This document shows, piece by piece, positions 8,045 through 63,508 of a stretch of DNA of 64,000 nt; the stretch's first letter is position 1, and the number at the start of each line of letters is the position of its first letter. The position numbers were made by a program, and so were the translations under genes. Origin of the DNA: Streptomyces sp. NBC_01788 (GTDB lineage: Bacteria > Actinomycetota > Actinomycetes > Streptomycetales > Streptomycetaceae). The notes beneath the pieces are model-generated. The model had not been told where the DNA came from and did no database searches. It worked only from the letters and a program-made list of their open reading frames with translations. The stretch lies in the NCBI RefSeq assembly GCF_035917575.1, contig NZ_CP109090.1, positions 1,178,001 through 1,242,000 on the forward strand. The letters are read 5' to 3'.

Positions 8045-9940
8045 ATGCAGATCCAAGACCTTCCGTATCCCGATCCAGGGGTTCCTGACGCACGCTCGGG
8101 TCCCCGACTCCTGTGGTGGCTGGGGCGGAACCAGCTGGGCGGTCAGCTGAAGGCACTGGCGTGGGGGCTGCTGCACTTCGCCTCCGTCTCCTCCCTGCCG
8201 TTCTGCGTCGGACTCGCCGTCCAGGCGGTCGTCGACCGTTCGGGTGCCGGGCTGGCCCTCGCCGGCGGACTGCTGGCGGTGGCGTGTGCCGGCAACGCGC
8301 TCGGCGACACCTACCTGCACCGCGCGGCGGTCACCAACTGGATCACCGCCGCCGCCCGCGTCCAGCAACTGCTCGCCCGCAAGGCCGCCGGGCTGGGCTC
8401 CGGACTGACCCGGCGGGTGGCCGCCGGCGAGGTGGTCGCCGTCTCCACGGCCGACGTCGAGAAGATCGGCTGGTTCGTGGAGGCCGTGTCCCGGTTCACG
8501 GCGGCGGCCCTCACCATCGTGCTGGTCTGTATCGCCCTGCTCGTCTACCAGCCCGCGCTGGGCGTGGTCGTCGCCGTGGGGCTGCCCGCGCTGGCTCTCG
8601 CGGTGCTGCCGCTGCTGCCCCGCGCGACCCGGCGCGCCGATGTCCAGCGGGAGAAGGCGGGCCGCGCCACCGAGCTGGCCTCGGACACCGTCGCCGGACT
8701 GCGGGTGCTGCGCGGCATCGGCGGGGAGGAGCTGTTCCTCGACCGCTACCGGCGCGCCTCACAGGAGGTGCGGCACGCCGCCGTCCGCAGTGCCCGCATG
8801 TGGTCCCTGATCGCCGCGATCCAGGTCCTGCTGCCGGGCCTGCTGCTGATCGGGGTCGTCTGCTACGGCGTCCATCTGGCCCGCGCGGGCCGGATCAGCG
8901 TGGGCGAACTCGTCACCGTCTACAGCTCCGTCATGGTCCTCACCTATCCGCTCCGGCACTTCGTCGAGATCGCCATGGCGTACTCCTTCTCCCGCCCCTC
9001 GGCCACCCGGGCCGCCCGAGTGCTGTCCCTGGAACGGGCCACCGACGGGACCGGGACACGGGCACCCTTCGTGCCGTCAGGTGATCTGCACGACCCGGCG
9101 ACCGGCCTTCGGGCACCGGCCGGACGGCTCACCGCTGTGGTCTGCGGCGACCCGGACGCGGCAGGCCGGCTGGCGGAACGGCTCGGCGGCCACCCCACCG
9201 AGCCGGGCACCTCGGCGCGGCTCGGTGGCATACCGCTGGACGAGTTGCCGCTCGGCTCCGCGCGCACCGCCGTCCTGGTCCAGGACAAGGACCCCGTACT
9301 GCTGTCCGGATCTCTGCGCGCGCTGCTCGACGTGCCCGCCTCGGGGAAGGTCACCGCCCGGGAAGCACTCACCGCCGCCCAGTGCGACGACGTGCTGGAC
9401 GCGCTCGCGCAGTCGTCGCCGGCCGCCGAGGACCCGATGGACGTCCGGATCACCGAGCGCGGCCGGTCCCTCTCCGGCGGCCAGCGCCAGCGCCTGGCTC
9501 TGGCCCGGTCACTGATCACCGACCCGGAGGTGCTCGTCCTGGACGAACCGACCTCCGCCGTCGACTCCCACACCGAGGCGCGGATCGCCCAAGGCCTGCG
9601 TGACCTGCGGGCCGGACGCACCACGGTGGTGTTCACCTCCTCGCCCCTCCTCCTGGACCACGCCGACCGGGTGGTGCTCGTCCACGAGGGCACGGTCGCC
9701 GCGGTCGGTTTGCACCGGGAGCTGCTGCACACCGAGCCCCGGTACCGCGCGGTGGTGACCCGGGAGACCGACGAGGAACGCGCCGCGCACGGCCTGCTCG
9801 ACGACGGCGGCAGACCGCGGGCCGCACCGGAACGCCGGTCGGACGACGCGCCGCGCGACGACGAGGCCGCCCCGCGGGACGCCGCTGAAGAGGCCCTGGA
9901 AGAGATGGAGGAGATGGAAGAGATGGAGGAGACGGCGTGA
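8045..9940 (+). CDS. ABC exporter half with degenerate Walker A
   Basis: A 631-residue fused permease-ATPase. Six predicted helices occupy residues ~25-310. In the ATPase domain the P-loop position reads GDPDAAGR (residues ~368-375), lacking the Gly-Lys-Ser/Thr needed to hold ATP phosphates, whereas the signature LSGGQ (476-480) and Walker B VLVLDEPTSA (496-505) are intact. The last ~60 residues are a charged tail ending in repeated EEM. It pairs with the next gene, which overlaps it (GTGA). The frame is open from 7529, but the ATG at 8045 is the first start placed just before the membrane domain; the exact start is uncertain. Confidence 0.85.
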   Translation: MQIQDLPYPDPGVPDARSGPRLLWWLGRNQLGGQLKALAWGLLHFASVSSLPFCVGLAVQAVVDRSGAGLALAGGLLAVACAGNALGDTYLHRAAVTNWITAAARVQQLLARKAAGLGSGLTRRVAAGEVVAVSTADVEKIGWFVEAVSRFTAAALTIVLVCIALLVYQPALGVVVAVGLPALALAVLPLLPRATRRADVQREKAGRATELASDTVAGLRVLRGIGGEELFLDRYRRASQEVRHAAVRSARMWSLIAAIQVLLPGLLLIGVVCYGVHLARAGRISVGELVTVYSSVMVLTYPLRHFVEIAMAYSFSRPSATRAARVLSLERATDGTGTRAPFVPSGDLHDPATGLRAPAGRLTAVVCGDPDAAGRLAERLGGHPTEPGTSARLGGIPLDELPLGSARTAVLVQDKDPVLLSGSLRALLDVPASGKVTAREALTAAQCDDVLDALAQSSPAAEDPMDVRITERGRSLSGGQRQRLALARSLITDPEVLVLDEPTSAVDSHTEARIAQGLRDLRAGRTTVVFTSSPLLLDHADRVVLVHEGTVAAVGLHRELLHTEPRYRAVVTRETDEERAAHGLLDDGGRPRAAPERRSDDAPRDDEAAPRDAAEEALEEMEEMEEMEETA

Positions 9941-11718
9941 TCGGCGTGGCGCCCCCTGCCTACGACCCGGCGGCCCCGACGACGGCCGACACCCTGCCCG
10001 TCGGCTCCGCCTCGACCGTACGGTCCTATGTGACCGAACTGCTGCGCCGGCACCGGCGCGACTTCGTCCTGCTCATCACCGTCAACACCTTTGCCGTGCT
10101 GGCCTCCATGGCCGGTCCCTGGCTGCTGGGCGGTCTGGTGGAAGGGGTGTCGGACCGCACCCGCGAGCTGCATCTTCCCCTGACCGCGGGGCTGTTCGTC
10201 CTCGCGTTGCTCGTCCAGGCGGCGTTCGTACGGGAAGTGCGGCTGCGCGGGGCGATGCTCGGCGAGCGGATGCTCGCCGACCTGCGCGAGGACTTCCTCG
10301 TCCGGTCGGTGGGCCTGCCGCCGGGCGTGCTGGAACGGGCGGGCACCGGCGACCTGCTCTCCCGCATCACCACCGACATCGACCGGCTCGCCAACGCGAT
10401 GCGGGAGGCCGTGCCGCAACTGGCGATCGGGGTCGTATGGGTCGCGCTGCTGCTGGGCGGTCTGATCGTGACCGCGCCACCGCTCGGCGCGGCCGTGCTG
10501 CTGGCCGTGCCGCTCCTGGTGGTCGGCTGCCGCTGGTACTTCCGGCGGGCGCCGTCCGCCTACCGCTCGGAGGCCGCGGGCTACGCCGCCGTGGCCGCCG
10601 CGCTCACCGAGACCGTCGACGCCGGGCGCACCGTGGAGGCACACCGCCTCGGCGAACGCCGCGTCGCCCTGTCGGAACTCCGGATCACCCAGTGGACCGC
10701 GTGGGAACGCTACACGCTCTGGCTGCGGTCGGTGCTCTTCCCTGTCATCAACGTCACCCACGTCACCGTGCTCGCCTCGGTGCTCATGATCGGTGGCGTG
10801 TTCGTCCTGCGGGGCTGGATCGGGGTCGGCCAGCTGACGACGGGCGCCCTCATCGCGCAGATGCTCGTCGACCCGGTGGGGCTGATCCTGCGCTGGTACG
10901 ACGAGTTGCAGGTGGCGCAGGTGTCGCTGGCCCGGCTCGTCGGGGTGCGCGACATCGAGCCGGACGCCGGGGACGACTCCCTGGCCCCCGCCGGCCGTGA
11001 CGTCGACGCGGACCGGGTGCACTTCGGCTACCGGGAGGGCGTCGACGTACTGCGCGAGGTCTCCCTGAAGGTCGCCCCGGGCACGCGGCTGGCCCTGGTC
11101 GGCCCGTCCGGCGCCGGGAAGTCCACGCTGGGCCGCCTGCTCGCCGGGATCTACGCGCCCCGGGACGGCCGGGTCGCGCTCGGCGGCGCCGAACTCTCCC
11201 GCATGCCCGCCGAGCGCGTCCGCTCCCATGTCGCCCTCGTCAACCAGGAGCACCACGTCTTCGTGGGCTCCCTGCGCGACAACCTGCTGCTCGCCCGCAC
11301 GGACGCCGTCGACGCCGAGCTGTGGGCGGCGCTGGGCGCGGTCGACGCGGACGGCTGGGCCCGTGCCCTCGACGACGGTCTGGACACCGAGGTCGGCTCC
11401 GGGGGTCTTGCCCTCACCCCGGCCCAGGCCCAGCAGATCGCCCTCGCCCGGCTGGTCCTGGCCGATCCGCACACGCTGGTCCTGGACGAGGCGACCTCGC
11501 TGCTCGACCCACGTGCGGCCCGGCACCTGGAGCGGTCCCTGGCCCGCGTCCTGGACGGCCGCACGGTCGTCGCGATCGCCCACCGGCTCCACACGGCCCA
11601 CGACGCCGACGTCATCGCCGTGGTCGAGAACGGCCGGATCACCGAGCTGGGCAGCCACGACGAACTCGTCTCGGCGAACGGCGCCTACGCGGCGCTGTGG
11701 CGCTCCTGGCACGGGTGA
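9937..11718 (+). CDS. ABC exporter half with degenerate signature motif
   Basis: A 593-residue fused permease-ATPase and partner of the preceding gene. Its GTG start overlaps the upstream stop (GTGA), implying translational coupling and equal stoichiometry. Walker A GPSGAGKST (389-397) and Walker B TLVLDEATSLLD are canonical, but the signature is LTPAQ (493-497) instead of LSGGQ. In the heterodimer, this Walker A would face the intact LSGGQ of the partner, giving one good ATP site and one dead one. The neighbours do not reveal the substrate. A strong hairpin follows the stop. Confidence 0.88.
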   Translation: MIGVAPPAYDPAAPTTADTLPVGSASTVRSYVTELLRRHRRDFVLLITVNTFAVLASMAGPWLLGGLVEGVSDRTRELHLPLTAGLFVLALLVQAAFVREVRLRGAMLGERMLADLREDFLVRSVGLPPGVLERAGTGDLLSRITTDIDRLANAMREAVPQLAIGVVWVALLLGGLIVTAPPLGAAVLLAVPLLVVGCRWYFRRAPSAYRSEAAGYAAVAAALTETVDAGRTVEAHRLGERRVALSELRITQWTAWERYTLWLRSVLFPVINVTHVTVLASVLMIGGVFVLRGWIGVGQLTTGALIAQMLVDPVGLILRWYDELQVAQVSLARLVGVRDIEPDAGDDSLAPAGRDVDADRVHFGYREGVDVLREVSLKVAPGTRLALVGPSGAGKSTLGRLLAGIYAPRDGRVALGGAELSRMPAERVRSHVALVNQEHHVFVGSLRDNLLLARTDAVDAELWAALGAVDADGWARALDDGLDTEVGSGGLALTPAQAQQIALARLVLADPHTLVLDEATSLLDPRAARHLERSLARVLDGRTVVAIAHRLHTAHDADVIAVVENGRITELGSHDELVSANGAYAALWRSWHG

Positions 11719-40779: not shown

Positions 40780-42020
40780 ATGAGGCTTCAAAGCGTGCTG
40801 GTGGGGTGGTTTGGGTCCCTGTTCAGGCCGGTGTGGGCAGGGCGCGATCAGGCGTTTCGCCAGTACGCCGCTCGCGTGGGTCAGTGGCATCGCCTGGCCG
40901 TCGAACACGGCGTGATCGACGACAACGATGAGTTCCTGATCAACGTCGCCGAGCACGGCTGCCGGTCCCACTGGTGCGGTCACTGGACGCGAGTACGCCT
41001 TGCCGAGCAGTGGGACCTGGCCAGGGTGCTCGGCCGGCGCCGGGGGCGGCCTGAGTTCGTCGCCATGTCGCTGAACGGCGAGAGCGTGCTGGGCGCGACC
41101 AGTGAGGAGTACGAGGTCTGGCTGATCGCCGTCGACCGCTTCCACGCGTGGGTCGAGTCCTGGGCCCAGGACCGCGCCCAGGAGACCCCGCAGGAGCGCG
41201 AGTCCGGGTGGCATGCCGTACTGCGTTGGAAGACCGCGCCACAGCGCCTCCGGTCGGCGTGGCGAGACGGGCTGGCCGGCAACCCGGCCGCACCCGCCTC
41301 GGTACTGCTGCGACTGCTCGACGTCGCAGAGGGCGAACGGCTACGCGGCGCCGGCTGGCTGATCACCCGTGAACTGCCTGACGAAGTCGTCGAGGCGTGG
41401 ATCTCCCATCCCGAGCCACGCGTCCGCAAGCAGCCGGCAGAGCGCTGGACACTCACGGCCGAGCAGCGCGAACGGCTCTTCGTTGAACCTGAACCCGGGT
41501 TGCGATGGATCTTCGCCACCTGTGCGGTGGACGGAAGGTCGCCCCTGACCGAGGCCACGTTCGCGCAACTCGTCGCCGATTCCAGCGCGAAGGTGAGAGC
41601 CGAGGTCGCACTCCATCGCGACCTGCCCGCCCGGCACCTGGTGACGCTCGCGGCTGATCCGGAACCCGCCATGCGCCGCGCCGCCTGCCGGCGAGCCTGG
41701 CCGTGCCTCGAACCGGACACCCACACGTCGCTGATGGCTGAGCGGACCTGGTCGACAGGTTCAGCCGTGACCCCGACCGCGGTGTGCGCCGGCGGGCCCG
41801 TCGCGATCCGCGCCTCACGCCGGCCTCGGTGATCCGTCTCCTCGACGACCCCGACTGGGCCATCAGAGAAGCGGCAGCGCGCGACCCGCGCCTGACCACG
41901 CGCGTGCTGACCAACCTGCTCCACGACGCCACCACCGCCATGTCCGCAGCCGCCAACCCGGCCGTCCCGGAGCACGTTATGCACCACCTCCTGGACCGGC
42001 AGCCATCAGTCACGACCTGA
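40780..42020 (+). pseudogene. LRV/HEAT-like repeat protein gene, frameshifted
   Basis: The first frame (40780 to 41832) runs from MRLQSVLVGWFGSLFRPVWA through repeats such as RDGLAGNPAAPASVLLRLLD and EAWISHPEPRVRK. Near 41743 the reading must shift to continue DLVDRFSRDPDRGVRR, DPRLTPASVIRLLDDPDWAI and AANPAVPEHVMHHLLD, ending at 42020. The repeats are leucine-rich variant type (DP..VR..AA.NP..P). A single missing base explains the break, so inactivation is probably recent or a sequencing error. Confidence 0.7.
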
Positions 42021-42186
42021 TCAGCCGGGGGTCGCCCAGCAGGCGCGAAGGCGACGTGCGTGCCTCGACGCGGTCCCTCCGCAGCTTCCACCGTCCCCGA
42101 CGCGACGGGCGTGCCCGCCAGTGCGGTTCCGCCACGCGATAGAAACCAGTGGCCGGCATGGACTGGGATTGGCAGGATGCCCGGCA

Positions 42187-43116
42187 ATGGCCTCCCACTC
42201 GTACTCCTTCAACAGTCCTCCGACCGATCCCATCGCCACTGCCCGCGACGCCTTGAACGGCCTGGCCGTCGGCGACGCCTTCGGAGCCCAGTTCTTCGTC
42301 CCCGACCACCTCCCCGCTCTGCGTGACCAGCAACTGCCTGAAGCGCCCTGGCCGTGGACCGACGACACGGAGATGGCCTGCTCCATCCACCGACTCGTCA
42401 TGCGACGAGGCGAGGTGAACCAAGATGAACTCGCCCGTTCCTTCGCCGAACGGCACGACTTCGACCGCGGCTACGGTCCCGCGATGAACCGCCTGTTGCG
42501 CCTGGTCCGCCAGGGCGGCAACTGGCGCGAACTCGCGGCCGGACTGTTCGACGGGCAGGGCTCCTGGGGCAACGGGGCAGCGATGCGCGTCGCCCCTCTC
42601 GGCGCCCGCTACCCAGGCGACCCGGAACGCGCGGCCCGGCAGGCCGCCATGTCCGCCGAGGTGACCCACACCCACCCCGAGGCCGTCGCCGGGGCCGTCG
42701 CGGTCGCCGTCGCCGCCAGCCGCGCCGCGTACCGCCGCGCCGAACCCGTGACCGGCACGGACCTGCTCGCCACCGTTTTGGACGTCGTCCCTCCCAGCCG
42801 GGTACGCGACGGCATCGTCGAGGCCCGTACGCTCCTGGACCAGCCTCACGTCGAACTCGCTGCCCATCTTCTCGGCAACGGACGCCAGGTCAGCGCCGTC
42901 GACACGGTCCCCTTCACCCTCTGGTGCGCCGCCCGGAACCTGACCGATTACGCGACTGCCCTGTGGGCCACTGCCTCGGCCGGTGGAGACGTCGACACCA
43001 CCTGCGCGATCGTCGGCGGCATCGTCGCCTCCCGCGTCGGCACCGAAGGCATCCCCGCCCCCTGGCGCCACCGCACAGAGACCCTGCCCGATTGGCTACA
43101 GGGACGCCAGTCCTGA
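42187..43116 (+). CDS. ADP-ribosylglycohydrolase family protein
   Basis: A 309-residue DraG/ARH-like enzyme. The metal-binding motifs are complete: GLAVGDAFG near the start, WTDDTEMAC, GSWGNGAAMRVAPLG and the C-terminal GGDVDTTCAIVGGIV. It removes ADP-ribose from proteins or nucleic acid, or hydrolyses related compounds. ATG at 42187 is preceded by AGGA eight bases upstream. The broken LRV-repeat gene lies just upstream on the same strand. Confidence 0.88.
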   Translation: MASHSYSFNSPPTDPIATARDALNGLAVGDAFGAQFFVPDHLPALRDQQLPEAPWPWTDDTEMACSIHRLVMRRGEVNQDELARSFAERHDFDRGYGPAMNRLLRLVRQGGNWRELAAGLFDGQGSWGNGAAMRVAPLGARYPGDPERAARQAAMSAEVTHTHPEAVAGAVAVAVAASRAAYRRAEPVTGTDLLATVLDVVPPSRVRDGIVEARTLLDQPHVELAAHLLGNGRQVSAVDTVPFTLWCAARNLTDYATALWATASAGGDVDTTCAIVGGIVASRVGTEGIPAPWRHRTETLPDWLQGRQS

Positions 43117-52928: not shown

Positions 52929-52944
52929 TGACGTTTTCTCAGCG
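52929..52944 (+). repeat. Left terminal inverted repeat of the IS
   Basis: TGACGTTTTCTCAGCG, matched in reverse complement at 53900-53915. It lies next to the transposase stop codon at 52949. Confidence 0.9.
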
Positions 52945-52948
52945 GTGA

Positions 52949-53785
52949 TCACTTCCAGATTCTGTTGAGGGTGAGGGCGGCGCGAGCGATGTCGCCAATC
53001 CGGCTGGGGCTGATGGTGATGTGTTGCAGGGTGCGCCAGCGCTGCTTGAGTTCGGCTGCGGCGCGTTCGCCGAGAGCTCGCATGCCTCTGATCAGGCTGT
53101 TGGTGGTTCGCGTGTCGGTGTGCAGAGCCCGTTCTGACTGGCCTTTCGGGCGGCGGACCGGGACGCGGATGCCGATGCCGGCGCCGATGTAGCCCTTGTC
53201 GGCCAGGGTGGGCAGCCCGTCGGCCGCCGCCTTGTAGAGGGCGGGCAGGGCGTGGATGCGGGCGGCGGTGACGTCGGGGGTGGAGCCGGGCTCGACGTCG
53301 GAGACCCACAGTGGGGTGCCGTCCGGAGCGGCCAGGAACTGCACGTTGCCGCCGAACGCCTTGTGCTTCTGGCTGAACCACAGGTCGTTGCCGTTGTCCC
53401 GGACGCCGGCGAGGCGGTCTGATGCGATCAGCGTGCCGTCGAGGATCACGTGGGTCATGCCCTCGCGTTGGCAGCGGTCCAGGACCTCGTGCAGGTCGGG
53501 GGCCTGGGCGGCGAGGACGTCGATGCCTTCGTGCAGGTAACGGTAGCCGGTGGCCTGGGAGATGCCGGCGTCGCGGGCCAGGCAGTGGACGCATCCGCGT
53601 TCGCGGAACCAGCGCAGCACCAGCACGGCTTGGCGGAACGGGCCGAGCGCGCGGCTGCCGCGCGGGGTGCCGATTCGGCGGCGGTGGGCAGCGAGCAGAC
53701 GCGAGAGGTGGTCCACGACGTGGCGCGGGACATCGAGCGTGGCAACATAGGTGACCAACGTGAAGCCTCTGGTGGTTACGGACAT
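52949..53785 (-). CDS. IS5-family transposase (DDE_Tnp_4 type)
   Basis: A 278-residue transposase. An N-terminal helix-turn-helix (GCVHCLARDAGISQATGYRY) is followed by a DDE domain: HVILDGTLIASDRL (first Asp), WFSQKHKAFGGNVQF, LWVSDVEPGSTPD (second Asp region) and LADKGYIGAGI, then an Arg-rich C-terminus. The gene is full-length, without stops or shifts, so the element may still be mobile. The ATG at 53785 lacks a good ribosome site; a TTG nine codons later is possible. Confidence 0.9.
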   Translation of the reverse strand: MSVTTRGFTLVTYVATLDVPRHVVDHLSRLLAAHRRRIGTPRGSRALGPFRQAVLVLRWFRERGCVHCLARDAGISQATGYRYLHEGIDVLAAQAPDLHEVLDRCQREGMTHVILDGTLIASDRLAGVRDNGNDLWFSQKHKAFGGNVQFLAAPDGTPLWVSDVEPGSTPDVTAARIHALPALYKAAADGLPTLADKGYIGAGIGIRVPVRRPKGQSERALHTDTRTTNSLIRGMRALGERAAAELKQRWRTLQHITISPSRIGDIARAALTLNRIWK

Positions 53786-53899
53786 GATCTTGTGGTGAGA
53801 CCTGTCCTACCAGGGGCTTTACGTCTGTCCGCGGCCGGGCCCAACTCGTCCGGCCTGCTCACGCATCGAGTGGTTCATGCCGCTTCGCGTAGATCATTT

Positions 53900-53915
53900 C
53901 GCTGAGAAAACGTCA
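53900..53915 (-). repeat. Right terminal inverted repeat of the IS
   Basis: CGCTGAGAAAACGTCA on the plus strand, the exact reverse complement of the left repeat. The transposase promoter lies between this end and 53785. Confidence 0.9.
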
Positions 53916-57208: not shown

Positions 57209-57498
57209 CATCGACGCAGCCGCCGAGCAGCCCGCCGCCGACGGCTTCCCCATCACCGACGAGCTGCTCGCCCGGTTCTCCCCGTGCTCCACGATGACGG
57301 CCTCCTGGCGCTCGTATCGCCGGTCCGGCTCGTCCGCGGCTTTCGGCCCGGCGGGCGAACTCGCGCTGCAGCCGCGGCCGGGTACTCCGGTCCTGAGCCC
57401 GGTGTCGGGGTCGACGTAAGTCTTGCGTCCGTCGCGTCGGCCGTCGTCTCTGCGCGGCCGGTAGATCAGCCTTGAGCAGTGGCCGGGTTCGTAGCAGG

Positions 57499-58428
57499 TC
57501 AGTGCGGTGATGGAGCTTCGTCTGCGGAAACGACCGCGGACCCGCGCCACCGGGGTCCGGCCTCAAGTTGCAGCAGCTCCTCCGCGCTCAGCGTAAGCTC
57601 CACGGCCCTGGCGGAGTCTGTGATGGAGGCCGGGCGGCTGGCTCCCGGTACCGGGATCACTGCCGGGGAGCGGGCAAGCAGCCAGGCCAGGGCGATCTGC
57701 TGTGGGCTCACGCCGCGCTCGGCGGCGATGCGGTGGAAGGCGGTGCCGATGGAGGTGGGGCCGGAGGGACCGTCGAGGGAGCTGCGCGAGACGCCGCCGA
57801 GTGGGCTCCAGGGCAGGAAGGCCAGCCCCATCCGGGTGCTCAGCTGCAGCTCGGGCTCGCTGTCGCGGACGGCGGGCGAGTACTGGTTTTGTACGGAGGC
57901 GAGTCCGTCGCCGAGGATCTGATGTGCCTGGCGGATCTGGGCGGTGGTGACGTTGGAGATTCCCGCGGCGCGGATCGTGCCGGCGTCGAGCAGCTCGCGC
58001 AGCGCGCCGACGGATTCCGCCCAGGGCACGGCCGGGTCCGGCTTGTGCAGTTGGTACAGGCCGATGGCGTCGACGCCAAGGCGCTTGGCGGAGGCTTCGG
58101 CGGCTTGCTTGAGGTGGTCGGGGGTGGCGGTGACGGTCCAGCTGCCGTCGCCGGGGCGGCCGCGGCCGCCCTTGGTGGCCACCAGGATGCCGGAGGTGTC
58201 GCCGCCGTAGCGGGCCAGGGCGCGGGCGATCAGCAGTTCGTTGTGGCCCTCCTCGCCTGCGTGCCAGTGGTAGCTGTCGGCGGTGTCGATGAGCGTGACG
58301 CCGGCGTCGAGGGCGGCGTGGATGGTGGCGATGGCCCGCGTCTCGTCCGGGCGGTGCTCGATGGACAGCGGCATGGCGCCGAGGCCGACGGCGCTGACGG
58401 CGGTGTGGGCGATGGTGCGGTACTGCAT
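57499..58428 (-). CDS. Aldo/keto reductase
   Basis: A 309-residue TIM-barrel NADPH-dependent reductase. The catalytic tetrad is visible: Asp and Tyr in LIDTADSYHWHAGEEGHNE, Lys in VATKGGRGRP and His in GLYQLHKPDP. The C-terminal VIPVPGASRP contacts NADPH. It lies 15 bp downstream of the epimerase gene on the same strand, forming a two-gene operon that faces a LysR regulator. Confidence 0.92.
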   Translation of the reverse strand: MQYRTIAHTAVSAVGLGAMPLSIEHRPDETRAIATIHAALDAGVTLIDTADSYHWHAGEEGHNELLIARALARYGGDTSGILVATKGGRGRPGDGSWTVTATPDHLKQAAEASAKRLGVDAIGLYQLHKPDPAVPWAESVGALRELLDAGTIRAAGISNVTTAQIRQAHQILGDGLASVQNQYSPAVRDSEPELQLSTRMGLAFLPWSPLGGVSRSSLDGPSGPTSIGTAFHRIAAERGVSPQQIALAWLLARSPAVIPVPGASRPASITDSARAVELTLSAEELLQLEAGPRWRGSAVVSADEAPSPH

Positions 58429-58443
58429 GGTGGCTTGAGGTCC

Positions 58444-59382
58444 TTAGGCAGTGGGTGACGGCTCGGTGGCGAGGGCTTCGGCGACGGCACCGGGCAGCCA
58501 GTCGGTGGTGTGGGAGAAGGAGAAGCCCAGCTCCTTCGCGCGGGCGTTGCTCATGGCGTAGTGGCGGTCCAAGGAGAACGGCGAAGCGTCCTCGCCCGCC
58601 GGGACGGTCCGGTAGACGGCCTCCCGTCCTACCTGCGTGGCGATGATCGCGGCGAGGTCGTGTACATCGAGCGGGCCGTCGGAGCAGGCGTTGACCGGGC
58701 CGGTGAAGTCGGCGGTGGTCGCCCACAGCAGCAGGTCCGCCAGCTCCTCGTAGTGGATGAAGACCGTGGGCAGCGTCTTCGCGTGCACAGTGATCTCTTC
58801 GCCCTTGGTGATGCGCCCGATGTAGTACGCCAGCCTGCCGGTGAACTCCTGCGCGCCGCCGCCGAGCACATGGGCGCTGCGCACACTGGCGAACTCAAAG
58901 CTTCCGGCGCGAGCGAAGATGGCCTCCGCCTGGCGCTTGCCCTCGGCGTAGTGCGCCTCCAGGTACGCGTCGTCGTGCCAGGGAAGGTCCATGGCCACCA
59001 GCCAGGCGGCCGGGTCCACGATCTCCTCCGGCACCGGCGTGCCGGGAGGCACGGTCGGCAGCGCGGCGTTCGCGGGGTCGTAGACCTCGATCGTGGAGGT
59101 CATGACGTAGCGCCGGGTACGGCCGGCGAAGGCGCGGGCGGCGATGGCGGCCTGCACCGGGGTGTAGCAGACCTGGTCCACCACGACGTCGAAGGTGCGG
59201 GAGTCGAGCGCGGCCGTCAGGGCGGCCTCATCGTTTCGGTCGACAACGAGGTGCTCCACGCCGCCGGGCGGCGAGGTGGAGCCGCGATTGATCACAGTGA
59301 CCTGGTGGCCGGCGGCCTGCAGGCGCTTCACCACGAGCTTTCCGAAGTACCGGCTTCCGCCGATGACGCCGATCTTCTGCAT
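58444..59382 (-). CDS. NAD-dependent epimerase/dehydratase (extended SDR-like)
   Basis: A 312-residue Rossmann protein. The cofactor motif IGVIGGSRYFGKLVVKRL is at the N-terminus. A YxxxK-like site appears as HYAEGKRQAE, giving Tyr and Lys. The C-terminal domain has SFSHTTDWLPGAVAE. It is probably a sugar-nucleotide or isoflavone-reductase-like enzyme; the substrate is not evident. ATG at 59382 follows a GGGGGC run. First gene of the operon with the aldo/keto reductase, divergent from LysR. Confidence 0.82.
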   Translation of the reverse strand: MQKIGVIGGSRYFGKLVVKRLQAAGHQVTVINRGSTSPPGGVEHLVVDRNDEAALTAALDSRTFDVVVDQVCYTPVQAAIAARAFAGRTRRYVMTSTIEVYDPANAALPTVPPGTPVPEEIVDPAAWLVAMDLPWHDDAYLEAHYAEGKRQAEAIFARAGSFEFASVRSAHVLGGGAQEFTGRLAYYIGRITKGEEITVHAKTLPTVFIHYEELADLLLWATTADFTGPVNACSDGPLDVHDLAAIIATQVGREAVYRTVPAGEDASPFSLDRHYAMSNARAKELGFSFSHTTDWLPGAVAEALATEPSPTA

Positions 59383-59452
59383 GCCCCCATCCTGGAGACC
59401 TATCGTCATCAGCAGAAGTACCGACCTACTGGATATGCATTAAGGAAAACTG

Positions 59453-60361
59453 TTGATTGATGTGCAGCGACTCCGCGTCCTGCGGGTGGTGGCGGAACAC
59501 GGCAGCTTCAACCAGGCGGCCGCGGCTCTCCGCCTCACCCCCTCGGCCGTCTCGCAGCACGTGGCTGCCCTGGAGCGCAGCCTCGGCACCCAGGTCGTCG
59601 CCCGCAGCACCCGCGGCGTCACCCTCACACAGGCCGGCCACATCATGGTCGGCGCCGCCGAAGCCGTCGCCGCAGAGCTCGAACACGCACAGCAACAGGT
59701 CGCTCGGCTCAGCACCGGCCGCACCCAACTCTCCGTCGCCACCTTCACCAGCGGCGGCAGACTGCTGCTGCCCGCCGCTCTCACCCGGCTCACGGCAGTC
59801 CATCCCCGCACCGTGCTCCACATCAGGGAGGGCGAACCCGAGGACACCTTGCCGCTCGTCCGCCAGGGCGCCGTAGACCTCGCCCTGGCCTACCACTTCG
59901 ACGGCCCACTACCCGTTGGACCGGGCCCCAGCTCCAGACTGGAGTGGACGCCGCTCCTGGAAGACCCCCTGCACGTCGTCCTGCCGCGAGTGCACCGACT
60001 CGCCGACCGCGACGCCCTCGACCTCGCCGAGCTGGCAGCCGAACCCTGGGTGCTCGGCTGCCTGAAGACCGAGGCCTACCTGCGCCGCTACGCCGAGCGC
60101 GCGGGCTTCGATCCGGAAGTACGCGGGACCACGACCGACTACTTCTTCGCCCGCTCACTGGTCGCTGCAGGTATGGGAATCTCCCTGATCCCCTCTATTG
60201 CGCTCGCCCCGGAAATCCCTGGCCTATGCACCGTCCCAATCAAGTCGCCGGGGCCGATCCGGCACATCGGCGTCGCCACAATCAGCCGCGGCGACCGGCC
60301 CCACGTCACGACGTTCATCCACGCCCTTCGCGAGCAGGCGCTGCAGCACATCGGGCATTGA
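59453..60361 (+). CDS. LysR family transcriptional regulator
   Basis: A 302-residue LysR regulator. The N-terminal winged helix is RVVAEHGSFNQAAAALRLTP and SAVSQHVAALERSLG; the effector domain follows (LSVATFTSGGRLLLPAAL, VAAGMGISLIPSIAL). It begins with TTG, supported by AAGGA six bases upstream. It is divergent from the epimerase/aldo-keto reductase operon, 70 bp away, the standard arrangement for a LysR activator and its target. Confidence 0.92.
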   Translation: MIDVQRLRVLRVVAEHGSFNQAAAALRLTPSAVSQHVAALERSLGTQVVARSTRGVTLTQAGHIMVGAAEAVAAELEHAQQQVARLSTGRTQLSVATFTSGGRLLLPAALTRLTAVHPRTVLHIREGEPEDTLPLVRQGAVDLALAYHFDGPLPVGPGPSSRLEWTPLLEDPLHVVLPRVHRLADRDALDLAELAAEPWVLGCLKTEAYLRRYAERAGFDPEVRGTTTDYFFARSLVAAGMGISLIPSIALAPEIPGLCTVPIKSPGPIRHIGVATISRGDRPHVTTFIHALREQALQHIGH

Positions 60362-60419
60362 TCCGCCACGGGGTCCCCGCCCAAACGCCGACGGGGCGCC
60401 GCTTCATAGGTGTTCGCCT

Positions 60420-60665
60420 GTGAAACGCCCCACCTCGCACCGCGCGACCTGCGGCGATCACCTGCTGGAGCCGCTGATGACCCGCTGGGGCGGACCGGAG
60501 TGGTTTGTGGTTGCCGACTCCAGCCTCTGCATCCAGAACCCCGACAAACTGGAAGATGTCGGCCTGCACCAGATGCTGAGTCTGCCGTCCGGCGAGCACA
60601 TCCCGTTGCTGTTCCCGATCGCCGTGGTCGATGACCTGGACGGCCTTAAGCGCCGAAGTGGGTGA
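60420..60665 (+). pseudogene. PIN-like domain protein, N-terminal fragment
   Basis: The frame reads GGPEWFVVADSSLCIQNPDK, LEDVGLHQML and LLFPIAVVDDLDGLKRRSG-stop. This matches the first half of a PIN-type ribonuclease, where WVVPDTS..I..P..L starts the fold and VVVDELD.LK carries the second acidic site. The rest of the domain is missing; the end overlaps the convergent CHAT gene. It therefore looks truncated by a rearrangement at the CHAT locus edge. Confidence 0.6.
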
Positions 60666-62454
60666 AGGGGCCCCACATCGTGGGACGTGTGCCCTCGGCG
60701 GCGGCTCGACTCACGGCTTGGCCAAGCGCGGCCGACGGGGAGGTCCCTCGCACAAGCTTGTGGAACGTTGCCATCAACCTGACGACCTCCTCGGCATCAG
60801 GAACGGACCACAGCGCGGCGACCACGGAACTCGCCCCCATGGCGAGCATCGCCGCGGGAAAGCCGAGTTGCTCGCCGGGCAATCGGGTGCCGATGCCGGC
60901 CAGGTGGCAGGCCGAGAGTACGACCGTCGTCCCGCGTCGCAGGTCGTGATCGAGGAGCGCGGACAGGGGCAGAGGCCGACCCAGGAGTACGGAGGAGTCC
61001 AGCGGATGGTGCGGATCGAGGAAGCCGTGGCCGGCGAGGTGTATGAGATTGGCGGATGCCATCAACTCCGACAGGCCCCGCGATGAGGCTCCGGCTTCCG
61101 GAAGGGCTGCCGAACCGCGAGGCCCGGTGAGGCCGCGCAATCGCTCACCGTCGTCGCCGGTGGCGACAGCTTTCGCCTCCTCCCGGAAAATCACGGGCTT
61201 CACCCCGTGCACGGCCGCCACCTCCCGGGCTTCCGGCACGGTGAAGGGAATCGGACCGGCGCCCGCGCCGTCGTCGAACCAGGGATCAGCCACGACCAGG
61301 GGATCGATGCGGGACGGCCGGGGCCATGCGCCCGCGAACATCAGGGCATTTCCCGAGGGCGCCACAGTGAGATCCATGAGGCCGCAGACAGGGGTGCCGG
61401 TTTCGTCGACCGGCGCGGTGTAGAGGGGGAGCCGTGCACTCTCGCCGAGGGGGACCAAGGCGATGCGGGCTCCCAGCAGGTCCGGCCAGGCAGCGAGCAG
61501 CGGCTTCCAGATGGCGTCGCCCACGGCGGCGTGCGCATCGCGGACCGCCCGGTCGCGGACTCTTTTCCGCGGCTCGTCCGACGACAGAACCGCGTGCATT
61601 TTCTGCAGATGGTTCCGGACTGCCTCGACCCGCAGGCCGGGCAGCGACACACTCGTGCACAAGTCGCGGCCGCTTTCCGGCGCGTCCATCCGGATCGCCG
61701 CGCCGGAGGTCGTTCCCGGCGCCACATAGACGACCGTGCGGGACGTCTTGCTCGCCGCGAGGATGGCGGACACGGTGTTGGAGCCGGAGAGGATGTGCCC
61801 CTTCGAGAATCTGTCGAGGGTTGCATCCAGGTCACGGACGAGCATCTCGTCGGCCATCACCCGCAGCGCCGCGACGGTGTCGACGCCCGCGGCATTCGAG
61901 GGGGCGCTTCGGGCTTGTCGGAGGGCCTCCCGCACGCTGCGCCGGAGCGCGCGCAGGGGCTGCACGGCGTCGTCACCGCCGAGAAGATCGGACGTCTCGC
62001 GGGCGATGGTGCGATCTCCCATCTGCAGGCCCGTCAGAGCTTCCGCGACGAGATAGCCCACGAGAGGGACTCCCGCCCGGTGAGCCACATCCACCGACAT
62101 CTCAGCCATCATCTGCATGTCGGCGAAGAACTCTTCAGGGAACGGCGCTCCTTGTTTACTGCACTGCGCCTCCATCATGGCGACCGCCGCGCTGTACGAC
62201 AGACTGCTGCAGGCCGCGAAGAACCACTGGCCCACGTCAGCGTGCATGCCGAAGGAGACCCTGGAGGCGTGGAGAGTCATCGGGGCGTACCACGCCCTGC
62301 CTTGGGCCATCTTGCAGAAGCAGCGGCGCATGAGCTTCCAGGAGCCGTCGACCGCTGCTTCGGTACCCTCCCGCATACCCAGTTGCTGCAGCTCCTTGAT
62401 GGCTTGAGCGACCTTCTCGTACTCCGCCGTGCGGTGGACGGTGAAGAGGCCCAT
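60646..62454 (-). CDS. CHAT domain (caspase-like) protein
   Basis: A 602-residue protein. The N-terminal ~250 residues are helical with no recognised domain; the C-terminal ~300 form a CHAT (caspase HetF-associated with TPRs) domain. The catalytic His is in NLIHLAGHGFLDP (His ~476) and the Cys in TVVLSACHLAG (Cys ~516), so peptidase activity is plausible. FPAAMLAMGASSVVAALWSV is a typical CHAT ending. Its ATG overlaps the stop of the small upstream gene (TGATG), implying coupling. Bacterial CHAT proteins often serve as effectors in conflict systems; that role is inferred here. Confidence 0.85.
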   Translation of the reverse strand: MGLFTVHRTAEYEKVAQAIKELQQLGMREGTEAAVDGSWKLMRRCFCKMAQGRAWYAPMTLHASRVSFGMHADVGQWFFAACSSLSYSAAVAMMEAQCSKQGAPFPEEFFADMQMMAEMSVDVAHRAGVPLVGYLVAEALTGLQMGDRTIARETSDLLGGDDAVQPLRALRRSVREALRQARSAPSNAAGVDTVAALRVMADEMLVRDLDATLDRFSKGHILSGSNTVSAILAASKTSRTVVYVAPGTTSGAAIRMDAPESGRDLCTSVSLPGLRVEAVRNHLQKMHAVLSSDEPRKRVRDRAVRDAHAAVGDAIWKPLLAAWPDLLGARIALVPLGESARLPLYTAPVDETGTPVCGLMDLTVAPSGNALMFAGAWPRPSRIDPLVVADPWFDDGAGAGPIPFTVPEAREVAAVHGVKPVIFREEAKAVATGDDGERLRGLTGPRGSAALPEAGASSRGLSELMASANLIHLAGHGFLDPHHPLDSSVLLGRPLPLSALLDHDLRRGTTVVLSACHLAGIGTRLPGEQLGFPAAMLAMGASSVVAALWSVPDAEEVVRLMATFHKLVRGTSPSAALGQAVSRAAAEGTRPTMWGPFTHFGA

Positions 62455-62930
62455 CAGTTCGCCGAGGGAGAGTCGGTGGTCCGGGTCCTGACCGTCTGGG
62501 GCGGCATGTCGATTGCGGATACGAGGGCATGGGTGAGGGCGGCGGTGTCCAGGGCGGGAGTGCCGTCGGAGCCCGGCGTCGACCGGATCTCGATACGGAC
62601 CTCGTCGCCTGGCGGTCCCGTCGTGATCGTGAGCACGAGGGGCGGCGTGCCCGGGCCGACGCTGCCGGACTGTGTCCCGGCCCCAGGGATGCGAAAGCCG
62701 AACCAGGCAGCGGCGCGCCGAGCGAACTCGGCGATCTGCTCGCGAGCTAGATAGACGCCTACCAGGTTCGCCGAGACCGCCAGTCCCTCGTTTCCGACGG
62801 ACAGCACGGCTTGGGCCACCGACGACCACTGGCCTGCGGAGCGGGTCCCGATCTCAATCTCGTCGAAGTCCGCATCTTCAAGCAACTCCCACAAATCTGA
62901 AGGAACATGAACATACATGTGGTCGTCCAT
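62454..62930 (-). CDS. Small partner of the CHAT protein, EACC1-like
   Basis: A 158-residue protein coupled to the CHAT gene by a TGATG overlap. After an acidic N-terminus (DLWELLEDADFDEIEIGTRS) come two helices (AVLSVGNEGLAVSANLVGVY, EQIAEFARRAAAWFGF) and a beta-rich end (LVLTITTGPPGDEVRIEIRS). The size and helix-then-strand plan resemble the effector-associated constant component (EACC1) proteins found beside CHAT and other effectors in multicellular bacteria. The similarity is by eye; no fold is certain. No ribosome site precedes ATG 62930; ATG 62918 is an alternative. Confidence 0.7.
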   Translation of the reverse strand: MDDHMYVHVPSDLWELLEDADFDEIEIGTRSAGQWSSVAQAVLSVGNEGLAVSANLVGVYLAREQIAEFARRAAAWFGFRIPGAGTQSGSVGPGTPPLVLTITTGPPGDEVRIEIRSTPGSDGTPALDTAALTHALVSAIDMPPQTVRTRTTDSPSAN

Positions 62931-63508
62931 ATGTGAGAGGTTAGCGATCTGGATTCCGCCAAAGGGTCTTTTCTGCAGAAGTGTTCATCCGTCACAGACC
63001 GTGCGCCCTGGGGGTCACGACCTGTCCGTCTCGCTCTGGAGACCCAAGGCGATATGGCCTGTGAGCCTCACGGGTGACAGGTGGCTGGGAGTGCTCCCCG
63101 ACATCGCCAGGATCGAGCTGGTGTCCGCGATCGAATCCGCCGCGAGCCCCCTCAGCCAGTGCGCGCAGACGGTGGGCGAGGACCTGGCGCAGGCCGGCGA
63201 CTATGCACGTAGAGCAAAACCCTCCGGCCGCTCGATTCGGTGTTGAGGCAAGCTGTGATCGCCGATCGGGTCCATGGGGCCAACTGAGAGGCGGCGCCGC
63301 GGGCAGGCCCGTCGCGCCGCTGCTCGGCAGCGCCGGGGCCACGCTCGGCTGGTCTCGACCGGCCTGCTCATCCCACGGCAGCTCTGGCCGTTCCCATGTG
63401 TGCGCTGCCGCGACGATCGGGCCTCCCCGTGCAAAGCGCGGACGGCGTGCCGGGGCGGAAGGGGTTCCGCCCGGCGCGCCGTCCACGCTGGTGGTTTCGT
63501 GCGGGCAG
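62931..63508. other. 578-bp intergenic region
   Basis: No convincing gene is seen. A plus-strand frame to 63246 reads DRWLGVLPDIARIELVSAIE and looks partly protein-like but has no start or family. The promoter of the CHAT module should be near 62935-62990. Confidence 0.35.

Follow-up and report, generated by a model that had tools for sequence, protein, structure and literature searches.

What does a small gene contribute to a CHAT protease when its stop codon overlaps the start codon of the protease gene? The question is raised by a 64,000-nucleotide stretch of Streptomyces sp. NBC_01788 (contig NZ_CP109090.1, positions 1,178,001 to 1,242,000; hereafter the window), on the reverse strand of which a small partner gene (62930..62454, ATG start, 158 amino acids) is followed by a CHAT protease gene (62454..60646, ATG start, 602 amino acids). 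Both open reading frames and their TGATG stop/start overlap (62452..62456, reverse strand), described in the initial annotation of 60646..62930 as a translationally coupled pair, are confirmed in the sequence, and translational coupling is supported by the retention of a stop/start overlap (TGATG or ATGA) in seven of eight loci, the window included; in the eighth, that of S. geranii (L005), the two genes lie a few bases apart. An alternative 727-residue open reading frame in the CHAT frame, with a start at 62829, overlaps the small gene and was rejected, as the family alignment sets the start at MGLF.

The pair is real and beyond chance because of the match of its larger product to Pfam family PF12770, the aligned relatives, the clusters of small-protein homologs and the constraint on both genes, with ratios of non-synonymous to synonymous substitution rates (dN/dS) against four relatives of 0.23-0.36 for the small gene and 0.23-0.45 for the CHAT gene. 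Apparently it is also an undescribed module: among titles and abstract openings of the open-licence literature on the CHAT domain, EACC1, caspases, Streptomyces and antiphage systems, no report on this pair was found.

The CHAT protease and its constant companion

The 602-residue protein is, judged from its sequence, a CHAT protease whose predicted catalytic His/Cys dyad is intact. It matches PF12770 (E 2.5e-27, 96.5 bits with a cut-off of 24) over residues 310-601, and nothing follows this C-terminal domain. The proposed GHG and SAC motifs, expected about 40 residues apart, are present at a spacing of 40 residues: predicted catalytic His476 (codon 61027..61029, reverse strand) is conserved in 28/28 family sequences and aligns with the HG of TPR-CHAT chains, and predicted catalytic Cys516 (codon 60907..60909, reverse strand) is conserved in 27 of these 28, each count including the window, and aligns with the corresponding AC. 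The sole exception carries an Arg (P0038, encoded at locus L049). For Csx29, H615 is given as the catalytic His (PMC10028731).

The helical N-terminal domain, initially annotated as unassigned, can be given a predicted fold: codons 1-237 (61744..62454, reverse strand) form, in the model, an alpha-solenoid such as TPR-CHAT proteins and separase have, with ten helices in the secondary structure predicted by AlphaFold2 (AF2) and a model that aligns with Csx29 and separase chains. The CHAT region proper (codons 238-602; 60649..61743, reverse strand) is delimited by the PF12770 match, the AF2 model and the Csx29/separase alignment, according to which its first half is probably a pseudo-protease and its second half active. 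The predicted architecture is thereby Csx29/separase-like, an alpha-solenoid followed by a two-part caspase-like protease.

Relatives of the protein form a subfamily. Among the best 7,996 candidates scored, 35 proteins were retrieved, the window's own, 26 subfamily members 44-84% identical to it and, after a sharp drop, eight generic CHAT proteins with E-values between 1e-6 and 7e-4; one subfamily member, P0040, is a 434-residue fragment and was left out of the alignment, which therefore holds 26 sequences (the window's and 25 relatives, aligned with it at 44-85% identity). The only other CHAT match in the window's genome is L001 (G000:C1:7256598-7257341), within an 894-residue open frame. The small protein, counting the window's own, is represented by 15 clusters in a single-sequence search and by 33 in a profile search (limit E 1; all at or below 1e-34), named members coming from Streptomyces, Kitasatospora, Actinacidiphila and one unclassified member of Streptomycetaceae.

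Both genes occur patchily and together. The CHAT gene (E 1e-30) is found in 5/392 genomes drawn from the genus and the small protein matches in six, five of which are the CHAT-bearing genomes; the sixth match is an antisense artefact and was discarded, leaving the same five. Family-wide draws (CHAT gene in 3/200 genomes, small gene in 3/394) add one genome with both genes (G460), the other two positives in each draw being the window's genome and G206. In all eight loci with readable context (the window included; from the genome draws and two named contigs) the small gene lies directly upstream of the CHAT gene, and no partner-free CHAT locus is found among them, in line with the constant companionship that had been anticipated. 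The two proteins also diverge in parallel: across 13 pairs, five of which were assigned as partners solely because their contigs have the same length in the protein listing, their distances correlate at 0.96, a value reached by 0/5000 permutations (best 0.82). At L049 both members are decaying, the protease by replacement of the catalytic Cys with Arg and the partner by loss of 14 residues and several conserved ones.

A -10-like box before the small gene is conserved as well. In actinobacteria, leaderless transcripts are usually marked by a TANNNT box close to the start codon. Such a box, TAACCT (62938..62943, reverse strand), lies 7 nucleotides before the small gene's ATG, and TANNNT recurs 6-8 nucleotides before the start in 8/8 loci, which are partly dependent, L050 and L051 being near relatives in this region and the window and the S. 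triticisoli locus (L004) likewise. Over the ~280 bp upstream, the motif falls into no other 3-nucleotide bin in at least two of the eight loci, GGAGG, GAGG and AGGA are missing from the last 18 nucleotides before the small gene in these loci, and a scan for a two-box consensus was negative. The box suggests a leaderless mRNA. The small gene and the CHAT gene are one constant, co-diverging, translationally coupled pair. That the two work as a unit is indicated by their coupled and apparently leaderless expression, in which the small gene comes first, and by their constant co-occurrence, co-divergence and joint decay.

A candidate two-gene protease switch

The explanation we favour, to which we give about even chances, is that the two genes form a protease switch complete in itself, which is passed on horizontally among Streptomycetaceae. 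The mRNA would start at the first codon of the small gene, and the small protein would therefore be the first product, synthesised in step with the protease; it would dock on the solenoid/CHAT protein, hold the protease latent and double as sensor or trigger. A cue such as infection by a phage, a stress or a developmental signal would alter the complex of small protein and CHAT, upon which the freed protease would cut one or few host or invader proteins, and the hyphal compartment would arrest or die as a result. The mode would be that of the EACC1-caspase two-gene system or of a regulator-TPR-CHAT pair, except that the protease would be the whole effector. As bound partners set the activity of Csx29 and of separase, we infer by analogy a small protein that holds or triggers the CHAT protease. 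A conflict role is argued from mobility, patchiness and the parallel to EACC1. The biology of the pair is plausible and testable, its function being a prediction.

With TPR-CHAT/Csx29 of type III-E CRISPR systems (Craspase), the protein shares the alpha-solenoid and two-part CHAT, its model aligning over 416 residues, and a His/Cys dyad aligned by profile. In contrast, the two are 12% identical, the NCBIfam Csx29 model NF041237 gives 24.5 bits with a cut-off of 300, and the CHAT protein here comes with its own small partner gene; Cas families are missing among the neighbour proteins searched, a survey in which no search was aimed at Cas7-11 itself. Separase, on the other hand, is eukaryotic and much longer, and unlike SAVED-CHAT (8tl0) the protein here has no recognised SAVED domain.

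Several points weigh against such a switch. What ties the protein to Csx29 is the profile of its family together with the model, and the window's CHAT sequence as a single query retrieved no TPR-CHAT chain from the PDB at E up to 1. Binding of the small protein to CHAT is argued from genetics alone because the AF2 model of the small protein is of low confidence (pLDDT 66.9) and lacks a convincing fold match, neither a significant fold nor a relative of solved structure having been found. In the eight loci taken by themselves, the distance correlation of 0.967 is nearly equalled by the best permutation (0.966), because some loci are near relatives, and the genome searches scored few candidates per genome, their absences being no proof. 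A defence role rests mainly on mobility, as PADLOC support is poor for the pair and its neighbours: neither protein of the pair matches, and of nine neighbour proteins from five other loci, two were matched, a Ser/Thr-kinase-type protein in L005 by many kinase models and a WD40 protein in L049 weakly. In addition, dN/dS shows constraint and not the fast change often seen in invader sensors.

The small protein could instead be the substrate, cleaved by a CHAT protease that is activated by something else, with the resulting fragment as the acting species. Precedents for a substrate encoded beside its protease are Csx30, which is cut by Csx29 (PMC10028731), and gated nucleases cut by their partner proteases (PMC12799240), and the Gly/Pro-rich linker at residues about 80-97 of the window's small protein, between its two predicted halves and variable in the family, could be a cleavage site. 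This linker is, however, short in many members; neither a catalytic domain nor, by hydropathy, a membrane segment is recognised in the small protein, and an inhibitor or chaperone would be no less compatible with a gene that lies upstream and is apparently expressed without a leader, so that we regard the substrate role as unlikely.

If the switch explanation holds, few bacterial protease switches of the separase/Csx29 type would be simpler than the pair, which consists of two genes in a multicellular bacterium with no CRISPR part or NTPase (nucleoside triphosphatase) seen beside them. It would provide a small testable system for the holding off and release of a TPR-CHAT protease and would extend the theme of EACC1-caspase pairs to CHAT.

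The small protein compared with EACC1

The helix-then-strand plan of the small protein had led to its annotation as EACC1-like. Its predicted secondary structure consists of strand-helix, two strands, a helix (63-76), two strands and a C-terminal helix. Searches of Pfam, NCBIfam and PADLOC returned no match for it; a match to a household family, which would have counted against the annotation, did not appear.

EACC1 itself is described as the product of a 5' gene; it has one membrane helix, and the 3' gene behind it often starts with a caspase (PMC7159879, PMC8195603). It is frequent in the genus (86/150 genomes); in 28/30 EACC1 loci the longest downstream open reading frame starts -17 to +10 nucleotides from the EACC1 stop, and seven of the ten loci scanned among these 30 hold a Peptidase_C14. 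Elsewhere in the window's genome an EACC1-like match lies just below the cut-off (L003, G000:C1:4144367-4144618; 22.9 bits versus 23.6).

The pair resembles the EACC1-caspase two-gene system (System 4 of Kaur et al., 2020; PMC7159879) in its actinobacterial origin, in a small non-enzymatic 5' gene that overlaps or abuts a 3' gene for a caspase-clan protease (8/8 loci here) and in a weak profile similarity over the C-terminal half of the small protein. The systems differ as the small protein lacks a Pfam EACC1 match and, by hydropathy, a membrane helix, and as an N-terminal C14 caspase is followed by variable effectors there, whereas here CHAT is C-terminal behind an alpha-solenoid. The word CHAT is absent from the main text of PMC7159879.

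Whether the C-terminal half descends from EACC1 was weighed by profile comparison. The similarity, weak and asymmetric, is confined to the helix-strand-strand-helix half of the small protein, for which hhalign gave probabilities of 63.4 (21 rows), 79.4 (38 rows) and 82.1 (distant branch), with raw scores of 31.6, 35.6 and 35.0. These exceed the unswapped controls (best of 50 and of 60 column shuffles, 22.4 and 19.9; reversed alignment, 16.5; best of 14 CHAT-segment decoys, 16.0), and the gene order and tight spacing are those of EACC1-caspase pairs. Exchange of query and template, however, lowers the probabilities to 13.9, 21.8 and 16.0 and the scores to 23.9, 25.9 and 23.9, near the best shuffle, and the near branch, which holds the window's small protein, alone reaches a probability of 23.3 (score 26.0) and, swapped, 2.9 (19.4). 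Furthermore, Pfam EACC1 (PF19953) matches 0/15 members at E up to 10, and the N-terminal half of EACC1 has, by eye, no clear counterpart in the small-protein alignment. In a hydropathy scan, which is not a dedicated membrane predictor, the best 19-residue Kyte-Doolittle-type value is 1.18-1.50 in 13/13 small proteins, indicating no membrane helix, although 6/30 EACC1 stretches also stay below the 1.6 that the other 24 reach or exceed. A distant relationship of the C-terminal half to EACC1 is therefore possible and membership in EACC1 is not indicated; the EACC1-like label is partly right, with a weak and asymmetric similarity above controls, no match to the Pfam family and, by hydropathy, no membrane helix. 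As an explanation of the small protein, the EACC1 relationship appears improbable to us. It is likewise doubtful that a soluble EACC1-derived adaptor is the only dedicated regulator of a bacterial separase/Csx29-type protease, in a minimal immune or cell-death module that would move as a bare two-gene cassette among Streptomyces and be expressed from a leaderless operon, the guard always being made before the protease. Were such a module real, it would form a bridge between EACC1 systems and, among the caspase-clan proteases, the TPR-CHAT/separase branch.

Cassette borders, insertion and neighbouring genes

The pair lies in mostly different surroundings, and DNA similarity between loci ends close to its borders. 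By blastn, a cassette at 60650..62986 (reverse strand) is common to the window and S. triticisoli L004 with 86% DNA identity, similarity stopping at the CHAT stop codon (60650) and 56 bp before the small gene (62986); similarity to S. geranii L005 stops at 60642 and 62924, and to L048 at 60650 and 62930. Neighbouring genes differ among the eight loci, except in L050 and L051, where they are alike.

In the window the pair is part of a strain-specific insertion of about 5.9 kb (57418..63291), as judged from one comparison with one strain, the genome G650 labelled as the same species. Contig C23 of G650 follows the window colinearly (90-98% identity to the left, 96-98% to the right) but lacks 57418-63291, and the genome has no small-protein match at E 1e-6 and no DNA match to the pair. 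At the insertion site G650 carries an open frame that by eye resembles an alpha/beta-hydrolase, of which the window retains only pieces on either side of the insertion (57344-57417 and 63292-63349). Three further genes, for an aldo/keto reductase, a LysR regulator and an epimerase-type protein, share the insertion with the pair, together with a PIN-gene fragment; no integrase was seen in the insertion. The fragment (60483-60650, forward strand) ends at about the CHAT stop codon and is 47% identical over 66 residues to a whole 334-residue PIN-domain protein of G567; it scores 15.6 bits itself, below the PIN_4 cut-off of 21.9.

These companions leave room for a pair outside conflict, a regulatory protease acting for instance on a transcription factor, in development or for the metabolic genes of the insertion, in favour of which stand the reductase, epimerase-type and LysR genes within the same insertion, the single cut in a regulator by which Csx29 is described to act (PMC10028731) and the purifying selection on both genes. 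We consider this reading rather improbable, as those three genes are unmatched among the predicted open reading frames of the other seven loci (flanks of about 0.3 to 10 kb) and as a core regulator would be expected neither to be so patchily spread (5/392) nor to be missing from a strain of the same species.

The adjacent genes searched encode a Cip1-like polysaccharide-lyase-type protein on one side and the LysR, epimerase-type and aldo/keto reductase proteins on the other. No NTPase or death-like domain is found among them, as the initial annotation had noted. An NTP-dependent system, one of the two kinds that it names for such pairs, is without support. At L049 the partner gene lies at 9697-10083 with the CHAT gene after it; genes for an AAA_16/nSTAND-like protein (below cut-offs), a hydrolase-like protein and a WD40 protein lie upstream.

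Two further segments of the window are also absent from G650. One of ~1.2 kb (41258-42426) lies in a region that is otherwise colinear, and the other, of ~1 kb (52930-53913), contains a 278-residue open reading frame that is transposase-like by impression.
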